A stretch of 64,000 bases of DNA from Paenibacillus sp. G2S3 (GTDB lineage: Bacteria; Bacillota; Bacilli; Paenibacillales; Paenibacillaceae): NCBI RefSeq assembly GCF_030123105.1, contig NZ_CP126095.1, forward strand, positions 1,240,001 to 1,304,000. The letters are read 5' to 3'. Shown here piece after piece: positions 16,608 through 61,921 of this stretch. The position numbers were made by a program, and so were the translations under genes. The notes below the pieces were generated by a model, which saw only the letters and a program-made list of their open reading frames with translations, made no database searches and had not been told where the DNA came from. Every line of letters begins with the position of its first letter. Position 1 is the stretch's first letter.

Positions 16608-17576
16608 ATGAAATTAGGCGTATTTGATCCTGTATTTGGAAGTTTAACTCTCGAAGAGATGCTTGATAAAATTGCTGCTGCTGGTTTGAATGCGGTAGAG
16701 ATCGGTTCAGGAGGCAATCCCGGGAATGCCCACTGTCCAACGGATGAGCTGCTTGCCAGCGAATCAGCACGTAAGGAATATCTGGAGAAGTTCACGAAAC
16801 GTGGCATTATGATTAGTGCGTTCAGTTGCCATAATAACCCGATTTCGCCGGATAAAGAAGAAGCTCGTGAAGGCGACGAAATTCTGCGTAAGTCGATCAA
16901 GCTAGCTTCGCTAATGGGCGTTAAGGTAGTGAACACTTTCTCTGGAACCGCGGGTGATAGTGACGAGGCAAAAGCACCGAACTGGCCAGTTACACCTTGG
17001 CCTACCGTGTACAGTGACATCAAAACCTGGCAGTGGGAGCATAAACTGATCCCTTACTGGAAGGAAATCGGTAAGCTAGCCGAGGAGCATGGCGTTAAGA
17101 TCGGTATCGAGCTTCATGGTGGATTCCTCTGCCATACTCCATATACGATTCTGAAGCTTAGAGAAGCGACTTGCGATGCGATCGGCGCGAACCTAGACCC
17201 GAGCCATCTGTGGTGGCAGGGCATCGATCCTGTGGGCGCGATCAAGATTCTTGGTAAAGCTGGTGCGATCCATCATTTCCATGCCAAGGATACGTACCTG
17301 GATCAAGACAATATCAATATGTATGGTCTGACAGATATGCAGCCTTATGGTGATGTTCAGACCCGCGCGTGGACCTTCCGCTCCGTTGGCTGTGGACACA
17401 GCATATCTGAATGGTCGGATATCATGAGTGCGCTGCGTACTTACGGTTATGATTATGTGGTCAGCATCGAGCATGAAGACCCTCTTATGACGGTAGACGA
17501 AGGCTTCCATCGTGCAGTGACCAATTTGCAATCCATTCTTATTCGCGATCAGCCACAAGGTATGTGGTGGGCGTAA
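16608..17576 (+). CDS. Sugar phosphate isomerase/epimerase (TIM barrel)
   Basis: The 322-residue protein fits the xylose-isomerase-like TIM-barrel family that includes IolE/IolI and hydroxypyruvate isomerase. Visible features are LEEMLDKIAAAGLNAVEIG at the start, HGVKIGIELHGG with a metal-ligand Glu, NLDPSHLWWQGIDP, IHHFHAKDTYLD, and VSIEHEDPLM with the C-terminal ligand Glu. It would isomerise or epimerise a sugar or cyclitol intermediate produced by the upstream dehydrogenase. GGTGG precedes the ATG. It is the last gene of the operon, ending in a strong terminator at 17593. Confidence 0.9.
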   Translation: MKLGVFDPVFGSLTLEEMLDKIAAAGLNAVEIGSGGNPGNAHCPTDELLASESARKEYLEKFTKRGIMISAFSCHNNPISPDKEEAREGDEILRKSIKLASLMGVKVVNTFSGTAGDSDEAKAPNWPVTPWPTVYSDIKTWQWEHKLIPYWKEIGKLAEEHGVKIGIELHGGFLCHTPYTILKLREATCDAIGANLDPSHLWWQGIDPVGAIKILGKAGAIHHFHAKDTYLDQDNINMYGLTDMQPYGDVQTRAWTFRSVGCGHSISEWSDIMSALRTYGYDYVVSIEHEDPLMTVDEGFHRAVTNLQSILIRDQPQGMWWA

Positions 17577-17850: not shown

Positions 17851-17874
17851 ACTTCGTGCCGGCTCGTGTTTAAC

Positions 17875-18048
17875 GGACCCAGATGCAGCTATTTGCGCAT
17901 TTTAGGCCTTTTGGAGCGAGTTTCGGACCGGAGAGACGTTATTCATTAAAAAAGCAAGAATTTCGAGGTGTTTAGAGCAAATAACTGCGCTGGAGTCCGA
18001 TAGCATTCCAAAACAACGGAATTGTTGCAAATAAGGGCTCTGGAGTCC
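17875..18048. repeat. CGGAC-type four-motif element, copy 1
   Basis: Four 19-bp motifs of consensus GGACYCCAGNNNNGYTATT start at 17875, 17925 (direct) and 17980, 18030 (inverted). Spacings are 50, 55 and 50 bp. Related copies lie at 33748 and 61669. The linker before the second motif contains the shared CTTTTGGAGC...GTTTCGGAC. Confidence 0.8.
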
Positions 18049-18071
18049 GCTGCTCACGCGATGGCCGTATT

Positions 18072-27979: not shown

Positions 27980-28316
27980 GTTTCTTCACCGCCTGCTCAT
28001 AGATATCCTTCCAGTACGTATTGCCTCCGGCCTCAATGAGTTCCCGGTTCTTGTGCTGCTGAACGTTTTGTTGTGGCTGATGTTTAACCTCTGGTTGATG
28101 CAGGGTCAGCGAAACAACTAAAATAATGGCGCCGACTGCGCCTAAAGGTTTGACGGGGATCTCGATTTCTTTATTCCAGTAAGCCAAGAGACGGGCTCCA
28201 AAGGTTGGAGGGTGGGTCATTTTCAGGACTCGTTTGTGTCCTTCGAAGTGGATGGGTTGTAGTTCTTTCTCTAGTTGTTGCTTGATAGCTTCGCGTTCCG
28301 TATTCTCCGTGTTCAT
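27969..28316 (-). CDS. Small membrane protein, putative anti-sigma factor
   Basis: The 115-residue product has a soluble N-terminal part (EREAIKQQLEKELQPIHFEGHKR), one likely membrane span around residues 60-75 (VGAIILVVSLTLH), and a short polar tail. It lacks an obvious ZAS zinc motif. Its start codon shares a base with the sigma factor stop (TAATG), and its 3' end overlaps the large surface protein gene, so the three form a tight operon. Membrane topology and position suggest a non-canonical anti-sigma factor; this is inference from context. Confidence 0.6.
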   Translation of the reverse strand: MNTENTEREAIKQQLEKELQPIHFEGHKRVLKMTHPPTFGARLLAYWNKEIEIPVKPLGAVGAIILVVSLTLHQPEVKHQPQQNVQQHKNRELIEAGGNTYWKDIYEQAVKKHEN

Positions 28317-28861
28317 TAGAAATGTCCCTCCTTCTCCAAAATCTTTTTTAAGAGCGTCCGTCCTCTAGCGAGCCGGGATTTAATCGTATTCTCAGGTGTA
28401 TTCAATTGCTCGGAAATTTCACGGATGCTCATCTCATGAAAGTAATATAACGTCAGACATTCGCGATATACATAATCGAGATTCCTGATGGAATCGGCCA
28501 GTCTAACATTATGCCATTCCACCATAAAAAGCTCTTCTGCCCCGGCAGTGAAGCCCGCATCATCGCTGGCTTGTAGCTCTGCTCCACCCGAGGGGAAAAT
28601 ATTACGCCAGCTCCAAGTCCGCTGCTTCATGCGGCAGCGGTTGACTACGATGCGAATGAGCCAAGCCTTTAACCGTTCCGGATCCTGTAACTGACTCATT
28701 TTGGCATACGCTTGAATAAAAGTATCTTGTACCGCTTCTTCGGCACTGTGTCGATCTTTGAGCAGTAAGCAAGCGGTTCGGAGCAGCATATCGCCGTAAT
28801 CGTCCATCAACAGGCGGAGAGCTGACTCATCCTTAGCTTTGATTCTGTCTATAATATTCAG
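28316..28861 (-). CDS. ECF RNA polymerase sigma factor (possible CTG start)
   Basis: Region 2 (LLMDDYGDMLLRTACLLL, SAEEAVQDTFIQAYAKM) and region 4 (YVYRECLTLYYFHEMSIREISEQL, ENTIKSRLARGR) define an ECF sigma factor of about 181 residues. The frame is open upstream to a TTG at 29041, but that stretch contains a TTGCA-type repeat element and unconvincing protein sequence. A strong AAAGGGAGGGG site lies 8 bases before a CTG at 28861, giving MNIIDRIKAKDESALR, which is where sigma region 2 normally begins. No ATG, GTG or TTG lies between this point and region 2. I therefore place the start at CTG, with moderate confidence. Confidence 0.8.
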   Translation of the reverse strand: MNIIDRIKAKDESALRLLMDDYGDMLLRTACLLLKDRHSAEEAVQDTFIQAYAKMSQLQDPERLKAWLIRIVVNRCRMKQRTWSWRNIFPSGGAELQASDDAGFTAGAEELFMVEWHNVRLADSIRNLDYVYRECLTLYYFHEMSIREISEQLNTPENTIKSRLARGRTLLKKILEKEGHF

Positions 28862-29006
28862 ATGAAGCTCCCCTCCCTTTACTAATAAGATGCGGCTTGG
28901 AGGATTAAGGTTGCGTTTGTTTGGAATATTTTTACTGAGGGGAAGGTGTTTCCCGTAATGATGTCTCGAGACGGCGTCCCATGAGCTCCTCAAGATGTGC
29001 CTCCCA

Positions 29007-29185
29007 TTGCACTTTGTACAATAGAACTTGTCCTGAAACAAGAGAAATTGAATTCTGCTGCATTTTGTACATTCAAAATAGCTAAGAAACGTCTAATTAG
29101 GGGGTTTTGGCGGATTCTATTGCAAGAAGTGCAATGCATTGCTTTTTTTGAAGCAAACAGCCCCAATCTATTACACTTTCTGCAA
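29007..29185. repeat. TTGCA-type four-motif element, copy 1
   Basis: Four 15-bp imperfect palindromes of the form TTGCA-N5-TGCAA start at 29007, 29058, 29120 and 29171 (spacings 51, 62 and 51). Copy 2 lies at 32844 with spacings 50, 62 and 51. It occupies the divergent region between the sigma factor and the lipoprotein gene. From its end to 29372 I see only probable promoter DNA. Confidence 0.8.
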
Positions 29186-32843: not shown

Positions 32844-33021
32844 TTGCAGAATCTGCAATTAAATGCTGTTCCATCGTTCAAAGCGAACTTTAGTTGTATT
32901 TAGTGCAGCTATAATTTGATTTTTTCTCTTTTGGGGTACAAATGATGGTTTTTAGTTGCACAAACTACACTTATTTGCTCAGCAGATCACTTTTTACGCT
33001 TAATAGTTGTATAGAGTGCAA
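32844..33021. repeat. TTGCA-type four-motif element, copy 2
   Basis: Four 15-bp motifs start at 32844 (TTGCAGAATCTGCAA), 32894, 32956 and 33007. Linkers show weak similarity to copy 1 in the same orientation, including a G4-5 run about 20 bp before the third motif. The 406-bp spacer holds no gene; besides this element only a small hairpin at 33056 is visible. Confidence 0.8.
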
Positions 33022-33700: not shown

Positions 33701-33747
33701 TATAGGGTGACCAGCTCCACCGCCGAGGCATCATCCGCTGAGCGAGC

Positions 33748-33922
33748 GGACCCAGATGGCGCTATTCGCAGATTTTTCGCTTTTGGAGCATAGTTTCGGA
33801 CTCCAGCGGCGTTATTCCTTAAAAAAAGCGCCATATGGGATGTTTTTTATACCATTAGCGACTCTGGGGTCCGATACCCTACTAAATTTGGGATAAAGCT
33901 GTGTTTAAGGTCCGTTGTGTCC
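33748..33922. repeat. CGGAC-type four-motif element, copy 2
   Basis: Direct motifs at 33748 (GGACCCAGATGGCGCTATT) and 33798; inverted motifs at 33854 and 33904. Spacings are 50, 56 and 50 bp. The linkers share CTTTTGGAGCATAGTTTC with the copies at 17875 and 61669. It lies between convergent genes. Confidence 0.82.
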
Positions 33923-33975
33923 GATACTTACATGATGGAAATTACGTATCCATAAATCAAGATGTGTTTATTCAT

Positions 33976-48092: not shown

Positions 48093-48211
48093 ACCTCTGT
48101 ATCTGCCCCCTCCCCTAGGCTGGACTTTGGAACAGAGCCGATCTGTGATACTATTTTAGTTATGAGAACAAGAATTGTATAAGCAGATTGTGTACGGGAA
48201 GAGGGATACTA

Positions 48212-50440
48212 ATGACGGTAGATAACAGCAATACGGGAGTCATTACGGATGAGGCGGCCACACAGCGGGAGCAGGAATTGATTACTGTTGCGATTGCCAA
48301 GGAATTGAACATTAGCCTGAAGCAGGTGCGTACAACGGTTGGACTGCTGGATGAGGGGAATACGATTCCGTTCATCGCCAGATACCGGAAGGAAATGACG
48401 GGTGAGCTGGACGAGAATGCGCTGCGTGATATTGAAGAACGCCTGGCTTATCTTCGCAATTTGGGCGAACGTAAGAAAGACGTTATCCGCAATATTGAAG
48501 AGCAGGGCAAGCTGACCAAGGAGCTTCATGAACAAATCACCAAAGCGGTCAAGCTTCAGGAAGTAGAGGACTTATATCGTCCTTTCCGGCAGAAGCGTAA
48601 GACTCGTGCTAGTGTTGCGAAAGAAAGAGGCTTAGAGCCGCTTGCGAACTGGATTATGGAGCAGCAGAGACAAGGGGACCCACAAACCGAAGCTGCGAAA
48701 TATATAGATGTTGAAAAAGGAGTGGAGACCGCAGATCAAGCACTTCAAGGCGCACTGGATATCATCGCCGAGAATATTGCTGATGATCCTGCGATCCGCT
48801 CTTGGGTTCGGCAATATACGGCAAGTCAGGGCATCCTTGTGTCTGAAGCTAAGGATGCAGAGCAGGAATCCGTATACGAGAACTACTATAGCTACCGTGA
48901 GCCTGTACACAAAATGCCACCTCACCGTATACTCGCCATTAACCGCGGTGAACGGGAGAATATTCTGAAGGTAGGCATTGAGGTTGTCACTGACAAAATT
49001 CATGCTTACATTGCGCGGAAAATCATTAAAGGTCCATCCCCGGTGAAGGAGCTGCTAGAAGCAGTGACTGAGGATGCCTACAAACGTCTGATTGCTCCTT
49101 CCGTGGAGCGTGAAGTTCGTGGGGAGATGACCGAGCGGGGCGAGAATCAAGCGATTTCGATCTTCTCTGGTAATCTACGTAGCTTGCTCCTGCAGCCGCC
49201 AGTAAAGGGACGCTGTGTGCTGGGCGTTGACCCTGCCTACCGTACCGGCTGTAAGCTGGCCGTCGTAGACGATACTGGTAAGCTGCTTGAAGTAGCCGTG
49301 ACTTATCCTACGCCGCCGAACAACAAGAAAATTGAAGCTGCTGCTAAGTTTAAAGAACTAATCGCTAAATATGGCATTCAGCTCATCGTGATCGGGAATG
49401 GGACAGGCTCTCGTGAGACCGAACAATTTACGGCAGAAGTGATCGCCGAAATTGGCGATCCAGAGCTGGCTTACCTGATCGTTAATGAAGCCGGAGCGAG
49501 TGTCTATTCGGCTTCCAAGCTGGCGCAGGAGGAGTTCCCGGATCTGGATGTGGCAGAGCGCAGTGCAGCTTCTATCGCCCGCCGTGTGCAGGACCCGCTG
49601 GCGGAGCTGGTGAAGATCGATCCGAAGGCTATAGGTGTGGGACAATACCAGCATGACGTCTCCCAGAAGCATCTGGAGGAGAGCTTAAAGGCTGTCGTAG
49701 AATCGGCGGTTAACCATGTAGGTGTAGATGTGAATACGGCATCTCCAGCCTTGCTCTCTTATGTGGCAGGAGTTAATGGAACGATTGCTAAAAATATCGT
49801 TAAATACCGTGAAGAGAACGGTAAGTTCACGACTCGGAAGCAGTTGCAAAAGGTACCTCGTCTAGGTGCGAAGTCCTATGAGCAATGTATCGGCTTCCTG
49901 CGGATTCCTGGTGGAGACAACACCTTGGATCGCACACCTATTCACCCCGAGTCATATCCGGTGGTGGATCGCTTGTTCCGCGAGCTAAGCCTCGATGTAA
50001 ATAAGCTTGGCAGCAAAGAAGTGGCTTCACAGCTGGAGGCACAAAATGCCGAGGAGCTGGCTGTGATGCTGGATGTCGGCGTGCCAACGCTTCGCGACAT
50101 CCTGGAGAGCTTGCAGCGTCCGGGCCGCGATCCTCGCGAGGAGCTGCCGCTGCCGATCTTCCGCACCGACGTGCTGAAGATCGAGGATCTGGTTCCCGGC
50201 ATGGAAATGCAGGGAACGGTCCGCAACGTGATCGATTTCGGCGCATTCGTCGATATCGGGATCAAGAACGATGGGCTGGTGCATATATCCCAGCTTAGCG
50301 GCAGCTTTGTGAAGCACCCGATGGACGTTGTCTCCGTAGGAGACAATGTCACCGTTTGGGTGATGGGTGTTGACCTGAAGAAGGGCAGGGTCAGCCTGAC
50401 CATGCGTCCGCCACGTGTTGAGGCGGGAAGTCTTAGCTAA
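48212..50440 (+). CDS. tex: Tex-family S1 RNA-binding protein
   Basis: The protein of about 742 residues has the full Tex architecture: an N-terminal helical domain (ISLKQVRTTVGLLDEGNTIPFIARYRKEMTG), a YqgF/RNase H-like domain (VLGVDPAYRTGCKLAVVDDTG), helix-hairpin-helix units (ASPALLSYVAGVNGTIAKNIVKYREENGKF), and a C-terminal S1 domain (GMEMQGTVRNVIDFGAFVDIGIKNDGLVHISQL). Tex proteins bind RNA and contact RNA polymerase and the ribosome in transcription-translation. I chose the ATG at 48212 after GAGGGATACTA. It follows the TetR/MFS pair, which is placed between mazF and tex. Confidence 0.95.
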   Translation: MTVDNSNTGVITDEAATQREQELITVAIAKELNISLKQVRTTVGLLDEGNTIPFIARYRKEMTGELDENALRDIEERLAYLRNLGERKKDVIRNIEEQGKLTKELHEQITKAVKLQEVEDLYRPFRQKRKTRASVAKERGLEPLANWIMEQQRQGDPQTEAAKYIDVEKGVETADQALQGALDIIAENIADDPAIRSWVRQYTASQGILVSEAKDAEQESVYENYYSYREPVHKMPPHRILAINRGERENILKVGIEVVTDKIHAYIARKIIKGPSPVKELLEAVTEDAYKRLIAPSVEREVRGEMTERGENQAISIFSGNLRSLLLQPPVKGRCVLGVDPAYRTGCKLAVVDDTGKLLEVAVTYPTPPNNKKIEAAAKFKELIAKYGIQLIVIGNGTGSRETEQFTAEVIAEIGDPELAYLIVNEAGASVYSASKLAQEEFPDLDVAERSAASIARRVQDPLAELVKIDPKAIGVGQYQHDVSQKHLEESLKAVVESAVNHVGVDVNTASPALLSYVAGVNGTIAKNIVKYREENGKFTTRKQLQKVPRLGAKSYEQCIGFLRIPGGDNTLDRTPIHPESYPVVDRLFRELSLDVNKLGSKEVASQLEAQNAEELAVMLDVGVPTLRDILESLQRPGRDPREELPLPIFRTDVLKIEDLVPGMEMQGTVRNVIDFGAFVDIGIKNDGLVHISQLSGSFVKHPMDVVSVGDNVTVWVMGVDLKKGRVSLTMRPPRVEAGSLS

Positions 50441-50901: not shown

Positions 50902-50980
50902 TAGTGTAAGAGGTCCTGAAATGCTGTCTATGATGTTATGTTCAGGGATGTTCAGAAAAATGGTGTTTGGGAGAGTAATT

Positions 50981-51159
50981 AGGGAAAAAATCCCTCAAAA
51001 AAGCCGATAATTGCATAAAATCAAAGGAATAAGGGAATTCCTCCCTAAAAATCGGGCTAATTTCTATATTCGCCTACGAATCAGATGAATTATAGGGAGA
51101 TTTTCCCTAATTAGTAGTCTGATGTGCTTAAATCTCATAAAAATAGGGAGATTCTCCCT
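50981..51159. repeat. AGGGA-type four-motif element
   Basis: Four 15-bp palindromes of form AGGGA-N5-TCCCT start at 50981, 51032, 51094 and 51145, with spacings of 51, 62 and 51 bp. The architecture is the same as that of the TTGCA elements, but the palindrome sequence is different. It lies between convergent genes tex (through the MCP remnant) and the DeoR regulator. Confidence 0.85.
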
Positions 51160-51290: not shown

Positions 51291-52052
51291 TTATTCCGCA
51301 ATAATCAAGCTCGTGCGTTTGGTTTTAAACTTCTGCAGGTAGCTTCGATCTATATTACGGTCGGTAATAATGTACCCAATTTTATCGAGGGAGGCGATGC
51401 CGATGGTCACATCTTTCCCAAATTTAGTATGGTCTGCCGCAACATAAACTTCTTTGGAGAGATCGATAATTTTTTTGCGCGTTTGGGCCTCCTCCAGGTT
51501 ATAGTCGGAGATGCCTTTTTCAAGGGTAATGCCGCTGGCGCAAATAAAAGCTTTAAGTATATTTAGCTCACTGAAATTAAACAGATAATCGTATGCAATG
51601 ACAGACTGCTCATTTAGCCGGACCTTTCCGCCAATGATAATAAGCTCAACCGCACTGTTCATCAGCTCGTTGACCACAGGAATGGAGTTCGTAATGACTG
51701 TGAGATTCTTTTTATTCTTGATATATTTGGCGATCTGATAGGTGGTAGAGCCGCTGTCCAGATAGATGCAATCCCCATCGTTGATATATTCGCTGCATTT
51801 TCGGGCGATCATTTTCTTTTCCTCTAAGTGACCGACCATCCGCGCATCCATTGGAGATTCAGCAAACTCCGATTCCACCAGTTTAATTCCACCATAAATC
51901 TTCTTGATCTTCCCTTGCTTGTCCAGCAGGTTGATATCTCTGCGAAGGGTATCGATAGAGATATTAAGCTCTTCTGCTAGCTCCGGCAGCTTCTGAACCT
52001 TTTTCAGCATTAAGATCTCTATGATTTTCTTTTGTCTTTCCAGAGGAAACAT
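51291..52052 (-). CDS. DeoR/GlpR-family transcriptional regulator
   Basis: The regulator of about 253 residues starts FPLERQKKIIEILMLKKVQKLPELAEELNISIDTLRRDINLLDKQGKIKKIYGG, a DeoR helix-turn-helix, and continues with the DeoR sensor domain (YLDSGSTTYQIAKYI, VITNSIPVVNELM). It is divergent from the phosphonate transporter operon and is the likely regulator of it, with a phosphorylated or phosphonate effector. I prefer the ATG at 52052 with GGGTGA before it over that at 52064. Direct repeats AAAGTTTA(T/C)AT near 52070 and 52179 are possible operators. Confidence 0.88.
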   Translation of the reverse strand: MFPLERQKKIIEILMLKKVQKLPELAEELNISIDTLRRDINLLDKQGKIKKIYGGIKLVESEFAESPMDARMVGHLEEKKMIARKCSEYINDGDCIYLDSGSTTYQIAKYIKNKKNLTVITNSIPVVNELMNSAVELIIIGGKVRLNEQSVIAYDYLFNFSELNILKAFICASGITLEKGISDYNLEEAQTRKKIIDLSKEVYVAADHTKFGKDVTIGIASLDKIGYIITDRNIDRSYLQKFKTKRTSLIIAE

Positions 52053-52069
52053 GTAATCACCCATTCAAA

Positions 52070-61548: not shown

Positions 61549-61668
61549 GAAGTAGAGGTTTTTTTATTAGTCCTATCCGCTATTCACAACATCCACTGCG
61601 TCTTCTGCATTCACCAAATCTACCGCATCAGTAGCATTCACCAATCTACCACATCCGCAGAGGCTTAA

Positions 61669-61843
61669 GGACCCAGATGACGTTATTTACATGTTTTTAG
61701 CCTTTGGAGCACAGTTTCGGACCCCAGTGCAGCTATTCCATAGAAATAGGCTCATAATGAGTGTTTTTTATGCCAATAGCGACTATGGAGACCATTAGTA
61801 GTTCAAATATGCGATTTTGCTGCGAATAAGGTCATTTGTGTCC
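61669..61843. repeat. CGGAC-type four-motif element, copy 3
   Basis: Direct motifs at 61669 (GGACCCAGATGACGTTATT) and 61719, inverted motifs at 61775 and 61825, spacings 50, 56 and 50. Matches copy 2 most closely. It lies between convergent genes; the remainder of the 455-bp spacer holds only the terminator at 61922. Confidence 0.82.
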
Positions 61844-61921
61844 GATAACTGCTGCATTCGCCCAAAAACTACGAAGTCAAACAAAGAGAGTGGATTTTGA
61901 ACAAGGGGAAGGTCCCAAAAA

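Follow-up and report, generated by a model that had tools for sequence, protein, structure and literature searches.

The four-site elements of the window

The window, a stretch of 64,000 nucleotides at positions 1240001 to 1304000 of a 6.70-Mb single-contig genome (handle G000), contains an element of the AGGGA class between the convergent ends of a tex-like gene (48188-50440, plus strand) and a deoR-like gene (51291-52064, minus strand). The element has an orthologue in Paenibacillus sp. VTT E-133291 (G072). An earlier note on this DNA had described it as four 15-bp palindromes spaced by 51/62/51 bp, and the palindromes were found at exactly the positions that it gave. Of the two TTGCA-class elements in the same note, both have the spacings claimed for them (51/62/51 and 50/62/51); their dyads are imperfect, and the first 35 bp of the element at 29007 overlap the 5′ end of a minus-strand ORF (28316-29041, a mechanical call, sigma-70-like). 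The three CGGAC-class elements also exist, but their sites start one base to the left of where they had been placed, and the central spacing is 54-55 rather than 55-56 bp. All six elements are present, with spacings correct to within one base (Table 1).

Two properties were overlooked in the earlier note. The sites are oriented + + − − (two direct, then two inverted) in every class, AGGGA included, and the spacers are not free. In the AGGGA class, the central N5 of the dyad is asymmetric, reading AWWNC in sites 1 and 2 and its complement in sites 3 and 4. The CGGAC sites are not palindromic.

Table 1 Four-site elements of the window and their parts (window coordinates)
Feature	Position	Sites	Spacings (bp)	Remarks
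AGGGA-class four-site element	50981..51159	+ + − −	51/62/51	
Dyads of the AGGGA element	50981-50995, 51032-51046 (+); 51094-51108, 51145-51159 (−)	15 bp each		Perfect 5-bp arms
Outer flank AGAGTAATT	50972..50980	+		Precedes site 1 in AGGGA copies repeatedly; complement after site 4; moderate conservation
TTGCA-class element	29007..29185	Dyads 29007, 29058, 29120, 29171	51/62/51	
TTGCA-class element	32844..33021	Dyads 32844, 32894, 32956, 33007	50/62/51	Orthologue in G001
CGGAC-class element	17874..18049	17874, 17924 (+), 17978, 18028 (−); 22-mers	50/54/50	
CGGAC-class element	33747..33923	33747, 33797, 33852, 33902; 22-mers	50/55/50	Orthologue in G001
CGGAC-class element	61668..61844	61668, 61718 (+), 61773, 61823 (−); 22-mers	50/55/50	

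Fixed geometry across copies and classes

The earlier note had raised the objection that spacings might vary freely in a larger set. We searched the G000 genome for two perfect AGGGA-N5-TCCCT dyads with a free gap of 25 to 55 bp, a test of the AGGGA class only, and found 41 dyad pairs at 20 places. The spacings do not vary freely: they are 51 bp in 24 pairs, 62 bp in 13, 61 bp in two, and 52 and 48 bp in one each (tally of 41 rows). The backward pattern, used as a control in the same genome, had no matches.

A second objection, that shuffled sequence might yield comparable arrays, was examined with a sequence-free scan for four 22-mers in + + − − orientation (site spacing of 47-54 and centre of 44-69 allowed). 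Across 462 kb comprising AGGGA-centred loci and the window, the matches listed with scores of at least 78 all belong to the AGGGA, TTGCA, and CGGAC classes, and the top score of the Markov-shuffled control was 70. The three classes were also recovered from a contiguous 400 kb of the G000 genome that was not chosen around AGGGA (control maximum, 71). Shuffled sequence does not yield such arrays. In the contiguous 400 kb, however, scores of up to 100 were also reached by low-complexity repeats, a minisatellite, and tandem arrays unrelated to the classes. In G001, a minisatellite with ATGCACCTAAGTATGGTTGT-type units (L070, ~940-1220, at 675 kb) is read both ways by the scan. Every perfect AGGGA dyad in the ~862 kb of G000 sequence that was scanned is part of an array; three that had been flagged as isolated are members of imperfect arrays.

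Setting aside 32 further scan matches, which were weak or were tandem repeats, we classified 107 elements: 63 AGGGA (62 without an identical one), 33 CGGAC, 8 TTGCA, and 3 CGAAAC. The geometry is 51/62/51 in 40 of the 63 AGGGA elements, 50/57/50 (20-mer ends) in 26 of the 33 CGGAC elements, and 50/59/50 in all three CGAAAC elements, while the TTGCA elements divide into five with 51/62/51 and three with 50/62/51. A literature search of PMC, which most subscription journals lie outside, returned no description of such a family in Paenibacillus.

The classes share a rhythm of about 10 bp, not sequence

In elements of the four classes aligned at their centres, A/T minima and G/C maxima recur every ~10 bases, spacers included. 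When only spacer positions were used (43 per half), G/C profiles were correlated in each of the six class pairs (r = 0.49-0.64) at a best shift of 0 or −1, and the correlation turns negative at shifts of 4-5 bp. None of 2,000 spacer shuffles reached the observed correlation in the three class pairs tested. Because the shuffles also break the kinship within classes, the weight of this result rests on the agreement of three or four classes and not on 107 elements. Each class is internally coherent in phase (R = 0.94-0.98), with a mean close to pi in all four (3.11, 3.11, −3.08, and −2.90 rad). The best spacer period is 10.1 bp in AGGGA and TTGCA and 10.2 bp in CGGAC; in CGAAAC, a class of three elements, it is 11.9 bp (z = 7.4), with z = 4.7 at 10.2 bp.

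Where different classes have the same A/T or G/C kind, comparisons of up to 30 elements per class show their letters agreeing at a rate of 0.49-0.55, and at 0.48-0.55 after a 10-bp shift, which is about chance level. Given that the letters agree only at chance while the phase matches, the classes share a rhythm and not a sequence. The spacers of AGGGA, TTGCA, and CGGAC have no residual sequence kinship. The common phase could nevertheless reflect descent shared too long ago to show in the letters. We read the spacer rhythm as a probable signature of the bendability of duplex DNA, in which A/T grooves would face one way at each turn along ~180 bp.

Sites are constrained in orthologous elements

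The G072 stretches that align with the G000 genome are mostly 90-96% identical to it, and the MAG UBA10396 (G073) is another near relative. Across 11 orthologous AGGGA pairs from G000 and G072, 32 of 220 N5 positions and 196 of 1,152 positions in equal-length spacers (four unequal-length spacers excluded) are changed, versus 7 of 440 dyad-arm positions in a set that was picked via perfect dyad pairs in both genomes and is therefore biased toward low arm divergence. In one pair (L033/L182), which may represent a replaced copy, the spacers and near flanks are very different; without it, by subtraction, 5 of 400 arm and 149 of 1,033 spacer positions are changed. For about 13 of 21 G000 elements (two of the 13, L189 and L195, outside the alignment), G072 carries at the corresponding place an element that includes a perfect pair, versus an expectation of about 2% if all 20 arm positions had to be kept at 17% neutral divergence.

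The three orthologous CGGAC pairs from G000 and G001 have 14 of 132 key site positions changed, compared with 21 of 108 other site positions and 82 of 291 spacer positions, and one pair alone has 9 of its 44 key positions changed. At some matching places, the spacers are wholly different while dyads and distances are kept, as if spacers had been exchanged among copies. The G000 copy at 1908133 is without exactly one 51-bp unit that is present in G058.

Gain and loss proceed class by class

A count of classes per genome, proposed in the earlier note, was run for AGGGA and CGGAC. Of 61 genomes of the genus, 6 (G000 among them) contain matches to a three-dyad AGGGA pattern. CGGAC half-elements, counted as forward plus reverse matches with no matches in controls, occur in 13 of 18 genomes: G001 (123+113), G007 (61+75), G000 (64+61), G014 (30+27), G003 (23+15), G018 (12+12), G012 (12+9), G009 (10+4), G058 (4+2), G011 (2+2), G010 (1+3), G072 (2+0), and G015 (1+1). 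By the same pattern count, G002, G004, G005, G006, and G073 have none.

Further classes were found outside G000. In G014, another genome of the genus and one without a match to the three-dyad AGGGA pattern, the de novo scan revealed the CGAAAC class (AACGAAAC...CGCTATT), which has the CGGAC layout, and a TTGCA variant with the word TTGCGAAAGTGCA; the AACGAAAC class and CGGAC may be one lineage with an altered word. G006 has no AGGGA or CGGAC match but contains tandem palindromes at 51 bp. In the 120 kb of G010 scanned, there was no class element (the top match, scoring 75 against a control of 70, is G+C rich), and scans around the AGGGA copies of relatives gave only minisatellites and low scores as candidates for extra classes.

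The CGGAC class is nearly gone from G072 (2 half-elements versus 125 in G000), although it is kept in the more distant G001. Two CGGAC-empty sites in G072 are deletions in which a remnant similar to site 4 or to spacer 3 survives; we rejected the possibility that they had never been occupied, since the remnants indicate losses in that lineage. The window's element at 33747..33923 is missing from both G072 and G073, with a spacer-3-like piece remaining, and the G072 place matching the element at 61668 has other sequence. For AGGGA, phages and viral contigs gave nothing convincing: the exact pair pattern had no match in viral contigs, and all matches of the element in a BLAST against phages were short and weak (best E, 3).

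The proposal of class-specific candidate binding sites on a common scaffold, arranged along one face of the DNA, is strongly supported. The same geometry recurs in four motif classes; A/T-G/C blocks are in phase across spacers of unrelated sequence, and the sites are constrained; and presence, loss, and decay go class by class between genomes.

Placement in the chromosome

Among 32 AGGGA and CGGAC loci, 18 lie in convergent, 12 in tandem, and 2 in divergent intervals, compared with shares of gap length, over 464 kb, of 30%, 33%, and 37%, respectively. The binomial P is 0.002 for the excess in convergent intervals and 8e−5 for the lack in divergent ones. The gap shares are based on gaps of at least 200 bp between crude ORF calls of at least 100 aa, and loci were classed with ORFs of at least 70 aa. 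Three tandem CGGAC loci at a piece edge, two degenerate AGGGA loci (one tandem, one convergent), and three TTGCA loci (two tandem, one divergent) were excluded, and the triple at 4960351 was counted once.

On a larger scale, none of the 41 perfect AGGGA pairs of G000 falls between 2.31 and 4.10 Mb, where the GC skew changes sign (the terminus side) and where only BLAST-level AGGGA matches occur, at 2.66 and 2.92 Mb. This is a post hoc observation; among the matches listed for G001, a similar AGGGA gap spans 2.64-4.91 Mb. CGGAC elements also occur in direct tandem, as three copies at ~200-260 bp, at two places in G000 (L035, 4960351-4960932; L114, 1444039-1444686), and the L114 cluster is triple in G001 as well.

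A candidate nucleoprotein particle

The superfamily recognised by its geometry is real and unusual. We observed fixed geometry, a phase common to the classes, independent class sequences, site constraint, class turnover, and a preference for 3′ or convergent positions. From these features we infer protein binding and wrapping, probably by a different protein for each class and with an architectural job. We consider it somewhat probable that the elements are sites at which a multimeric protein, different for each class, bends or wraps ~180 bp, and that selection keeps them, dispersed, in 3′ or convergent DNA. Each element would be the assembly site of one nucleoprotein particle. A multimeric DNA-binding protein specific to the class would occupy the four sites (dyad-symmetric about the centre), and the whole ~180 bp could bend or wrap smoothly round this protein owing to its phased A/T-G/C pattern (~10.1-10.2 bp). 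Because divergent intervals are avoided, such a particle would act in local chromosome architecture, organising the nucleoid or a supercoil domain, and not in the control of promoters. Copies may have been spread by whatever moves intergenic DNA; in one genome, they are carried by a MITE-like unit.

A period below 10.5 bp is a sign of left-handed, nucleosome-like wrapping, and nucleosome-positioning DNA has an A/T-G/C alternation of ~10.2 bp across 150-180 bp. The rhythm of the elements is alike, but the Paenibacillus elements are bacterial and have four strict sequence-specific sites. More tentatively, and with less confidence than we place in the binding and wrapping itself, we suggest that the elements may belong to a sequence-addressed bacterial counterpart of the nucleosome: a standard ~180-bp particle with left-handed-type 10.2-bp phasing, in which an exchange of address words goes along with an exchange of the proteins. 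Several independent systems would then coexist on a chromosome and turn over between species.

A repeat family defined by geometry is easily missed by sequence-based repeat finders. If the elements are wrapped into particles, they would offer a natural system of fixed register in which to study bacterial DNA wrapping and the co-evolution of proteins and sites. Natural losses are at hand, such as the CGGAC collapse in G072, and a set of paralogues that tracks the classes would name the proteins directly.

Lrp/AsnC proteins as candidate binders

It is possible, though we think it unlikely, that the class-specific proteins are Lrp/AsnC proteins, with a dimer on each 15-bp dyad and an octamer of four dimers carrying the wrapped DNA. 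The likeness is to Ss-LrpB arrays, which have several regularly spaced 15-bp palindromic sites (consensus TTGCAAAATTTGCAA), each bound by one dimer, and in which the DNA is wrapped (PMC4046817); wrapping of DNA by Lrp oligomers is likewise described (PMC2995911). The TTGCA dyad is nearly that of Ss-LrpB (TTGYA-N5-TRCAA versus TTGCAAAATTTGCAA), and AGGGA has the 5-5-5 dyad plan of Lrp/AsnC operators, but another word. The Ss-LrpB operator itself is unlike the elements, being composed of three juxtaposed sites with ~100 bp wrapped (PMC4046817, PMC2995911), whereas the Paenibacillus elements are dispersed 180-bp arrays at 51/62/51.

We searched 15 genomes for PF01037 and grouped 49 proteins by tree and 11 more by BLAST, with a few matches of G002, G009, and G011 falling outside the grouping. 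Group A is present in all 15 genomes. For AGGGA, no class-tracking PF01037 paralogue was found among these genomes: G058 has only groups A and B, and G072 keeps AGGGA elements with a broken group B gene, and therefore no class-specific PF01037 protein fits AGGGA. Co-occurrence thus speaks against Lrp/AsnC for AGGGA, while for CGGAC it is mixed. In the CGGAC-depleted G072, the group B lrp gene that neighbours a CGGAC element (L265, contig C67, ~1130-1480; relatives of this gene elsewhere are intact) has lost 8 bp from its HTH region, and the element next to it is decayed. No group B protein is among the matches examined in G004 (2 of 2), G006 (6 of 6), and G002 (3 of 5), three genomes with no CGGAC half-elements. 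Against this, G003 has 38 half-elements and no group B orthologue among its 5 PF01037 matches, G058 has group B and merely 6 half-elements, and G005 has a 55% B-like protein and none. The CGGAC sites are, moreover, not palindromic, and the adjacency of CGGAC and lrpB is a single locus shared by descent.

The CGGAC collapse in G072 is consistent with decay of the sites once a trans factor had been lost, but the link is weak, as G003 is without group B. For the same reason, group B was retained only as a weak candidate for the CGGAC factor. Group F was rejected, as none of the 4 matches in G007, a genome with 136 half-elements, belongs to it. That the binders work like Lrp/AsnC proteins is a lead; their identity as Lrp/AsnC fails for AGGGA.

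Mobility

An unlikely alternative to the wrapped particle is that the arrays are ends (two sites each) or internal transposase-binding sites of non-autonomous mobile elements, in which case site conservation would reflect transposability. The copies are dispersed, their + + − − orientation is what two-site transposon ends would give, and presence/absence differences between species exist. In G003, CGGAC arrays lie inside a MITE-like unit of 285 bp whose ends are inverted repeats (GGCTC-N12-AGC[GT]GTTGAC, aligned by eye). Both ends are found in 12 of 22 copies examined (38 pattern matches in total). Six of the 12 show a direct repeat of 8 bp in which six or more positions match (mismatched pairs, 0.8%). 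The terminal inverted repeats, however, start 74 bp to the left and end 35 bp to the right of the array and differ in sequence from the CGGAC sites. The earlier suggestion that ends and inner sites co-evolve within a mobile element finds no support in this one case in which the ends of a mobile unit are visible, since they are outside the array and unrelated to its sites: the CGGAC arrays of G003 multiplied recently as the unit's cargo. No IS1595 that might be tied to the unit ends was among the matches listed.

At three AGGGA presence/absence sites compared between G000 and G072, the size difference (~290-320 bp) is larger than the element, and neither target duplication nor inverted ends were seen, unlike in MITEs; target-site duplication, a check that the earlier note had proposed, is accordingly found at G003 CGGAC units but not at these three sites. 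No empty AGGGA site was clean, that is, without extra changed DNA; the closest is L190, with 8 bp in G000 versus 297 in G072 and a shared terminator-like hairpin adjoining. Also opposed to the mobile interpretation are the conservation of sites in copies at orthologous places and the occurrence of every perfect AGGGA pair within an array, with none bounding a gene.

Topological and RNA-level interpretations and known repeats

Still further from the favoured reading of wrapped particles, we regard as very unlikely a BIME-like role, in which gyrase or another topoisomerase would be recruited between convergent genes and the dyads would serve an accessory factor. Convergent or 3′ placement, the wrapping-like periodicity, and the many copies are in line with it. 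Gyrase, however, is one protein, which leaves the unrelated class words unexplained, and it wraps DNA right-handed, whereas a period below 10.5 bp suggests left-handed wrapping. An action at the RNA level, as four 3′ UTR hairpins, terminators, or protein-binding RNA, is scarcely credible: the 3′ location suits it and AGGGA dyads could form 5-bp stems, but CGGAC sites form no hairpins, the common 10-bp phase is a property of duplex DNA, sites 1 and 4 often differ in N5 (listing read by eye), ordinary terminator-like hairpins adjoin some elements, and the window has no Rfam match at gathering thresholds.

REP/BIME repeats of enterobacteria and pseudomonads are the nearest repeat kind: they occur in many intergenic copies, as regularly spaced palindromic units of alternating orientation (PMC2817692), and are hit by insertion sequences (PMC1525189). 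They are not known to have fixed geometry and interchangeable words, whereas the Paenibacillus elements have four sites, fixed helical spacing, phased spacers, and several words on one geometry. REP/BIME families are defined by a palindrome of 20-40 bp that carries a GTAG or CGTC tag on one side (PMC3733652); this tag is absent from the profile of 18 AGGGA rows and from the other classes as viewed by eye. 

Two insertion sequence copies in G000, 99.6% identical to each other (L017 8169-9690, ~575.7-577.2 kb; L023 8362-9885, ~4108.2-4109.7 kb), both terminate precisely where an AGGGA dyad starts on its left side. Their 371-aa transposase ORF is, judging by its motifs, presumably IS110-like. Palindromes repeated at 51 bp, or five turns, also occur with unrelated words and without a 62-bp centre (L124, 1434-1694; L117, ~16975-17026), and G006 has repeats of the same kind at L128, L129, and L131. 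Their words are AAGGCA..TGCCTT, ACGG..CCGT, and AAGTCCC..GGGACTT.
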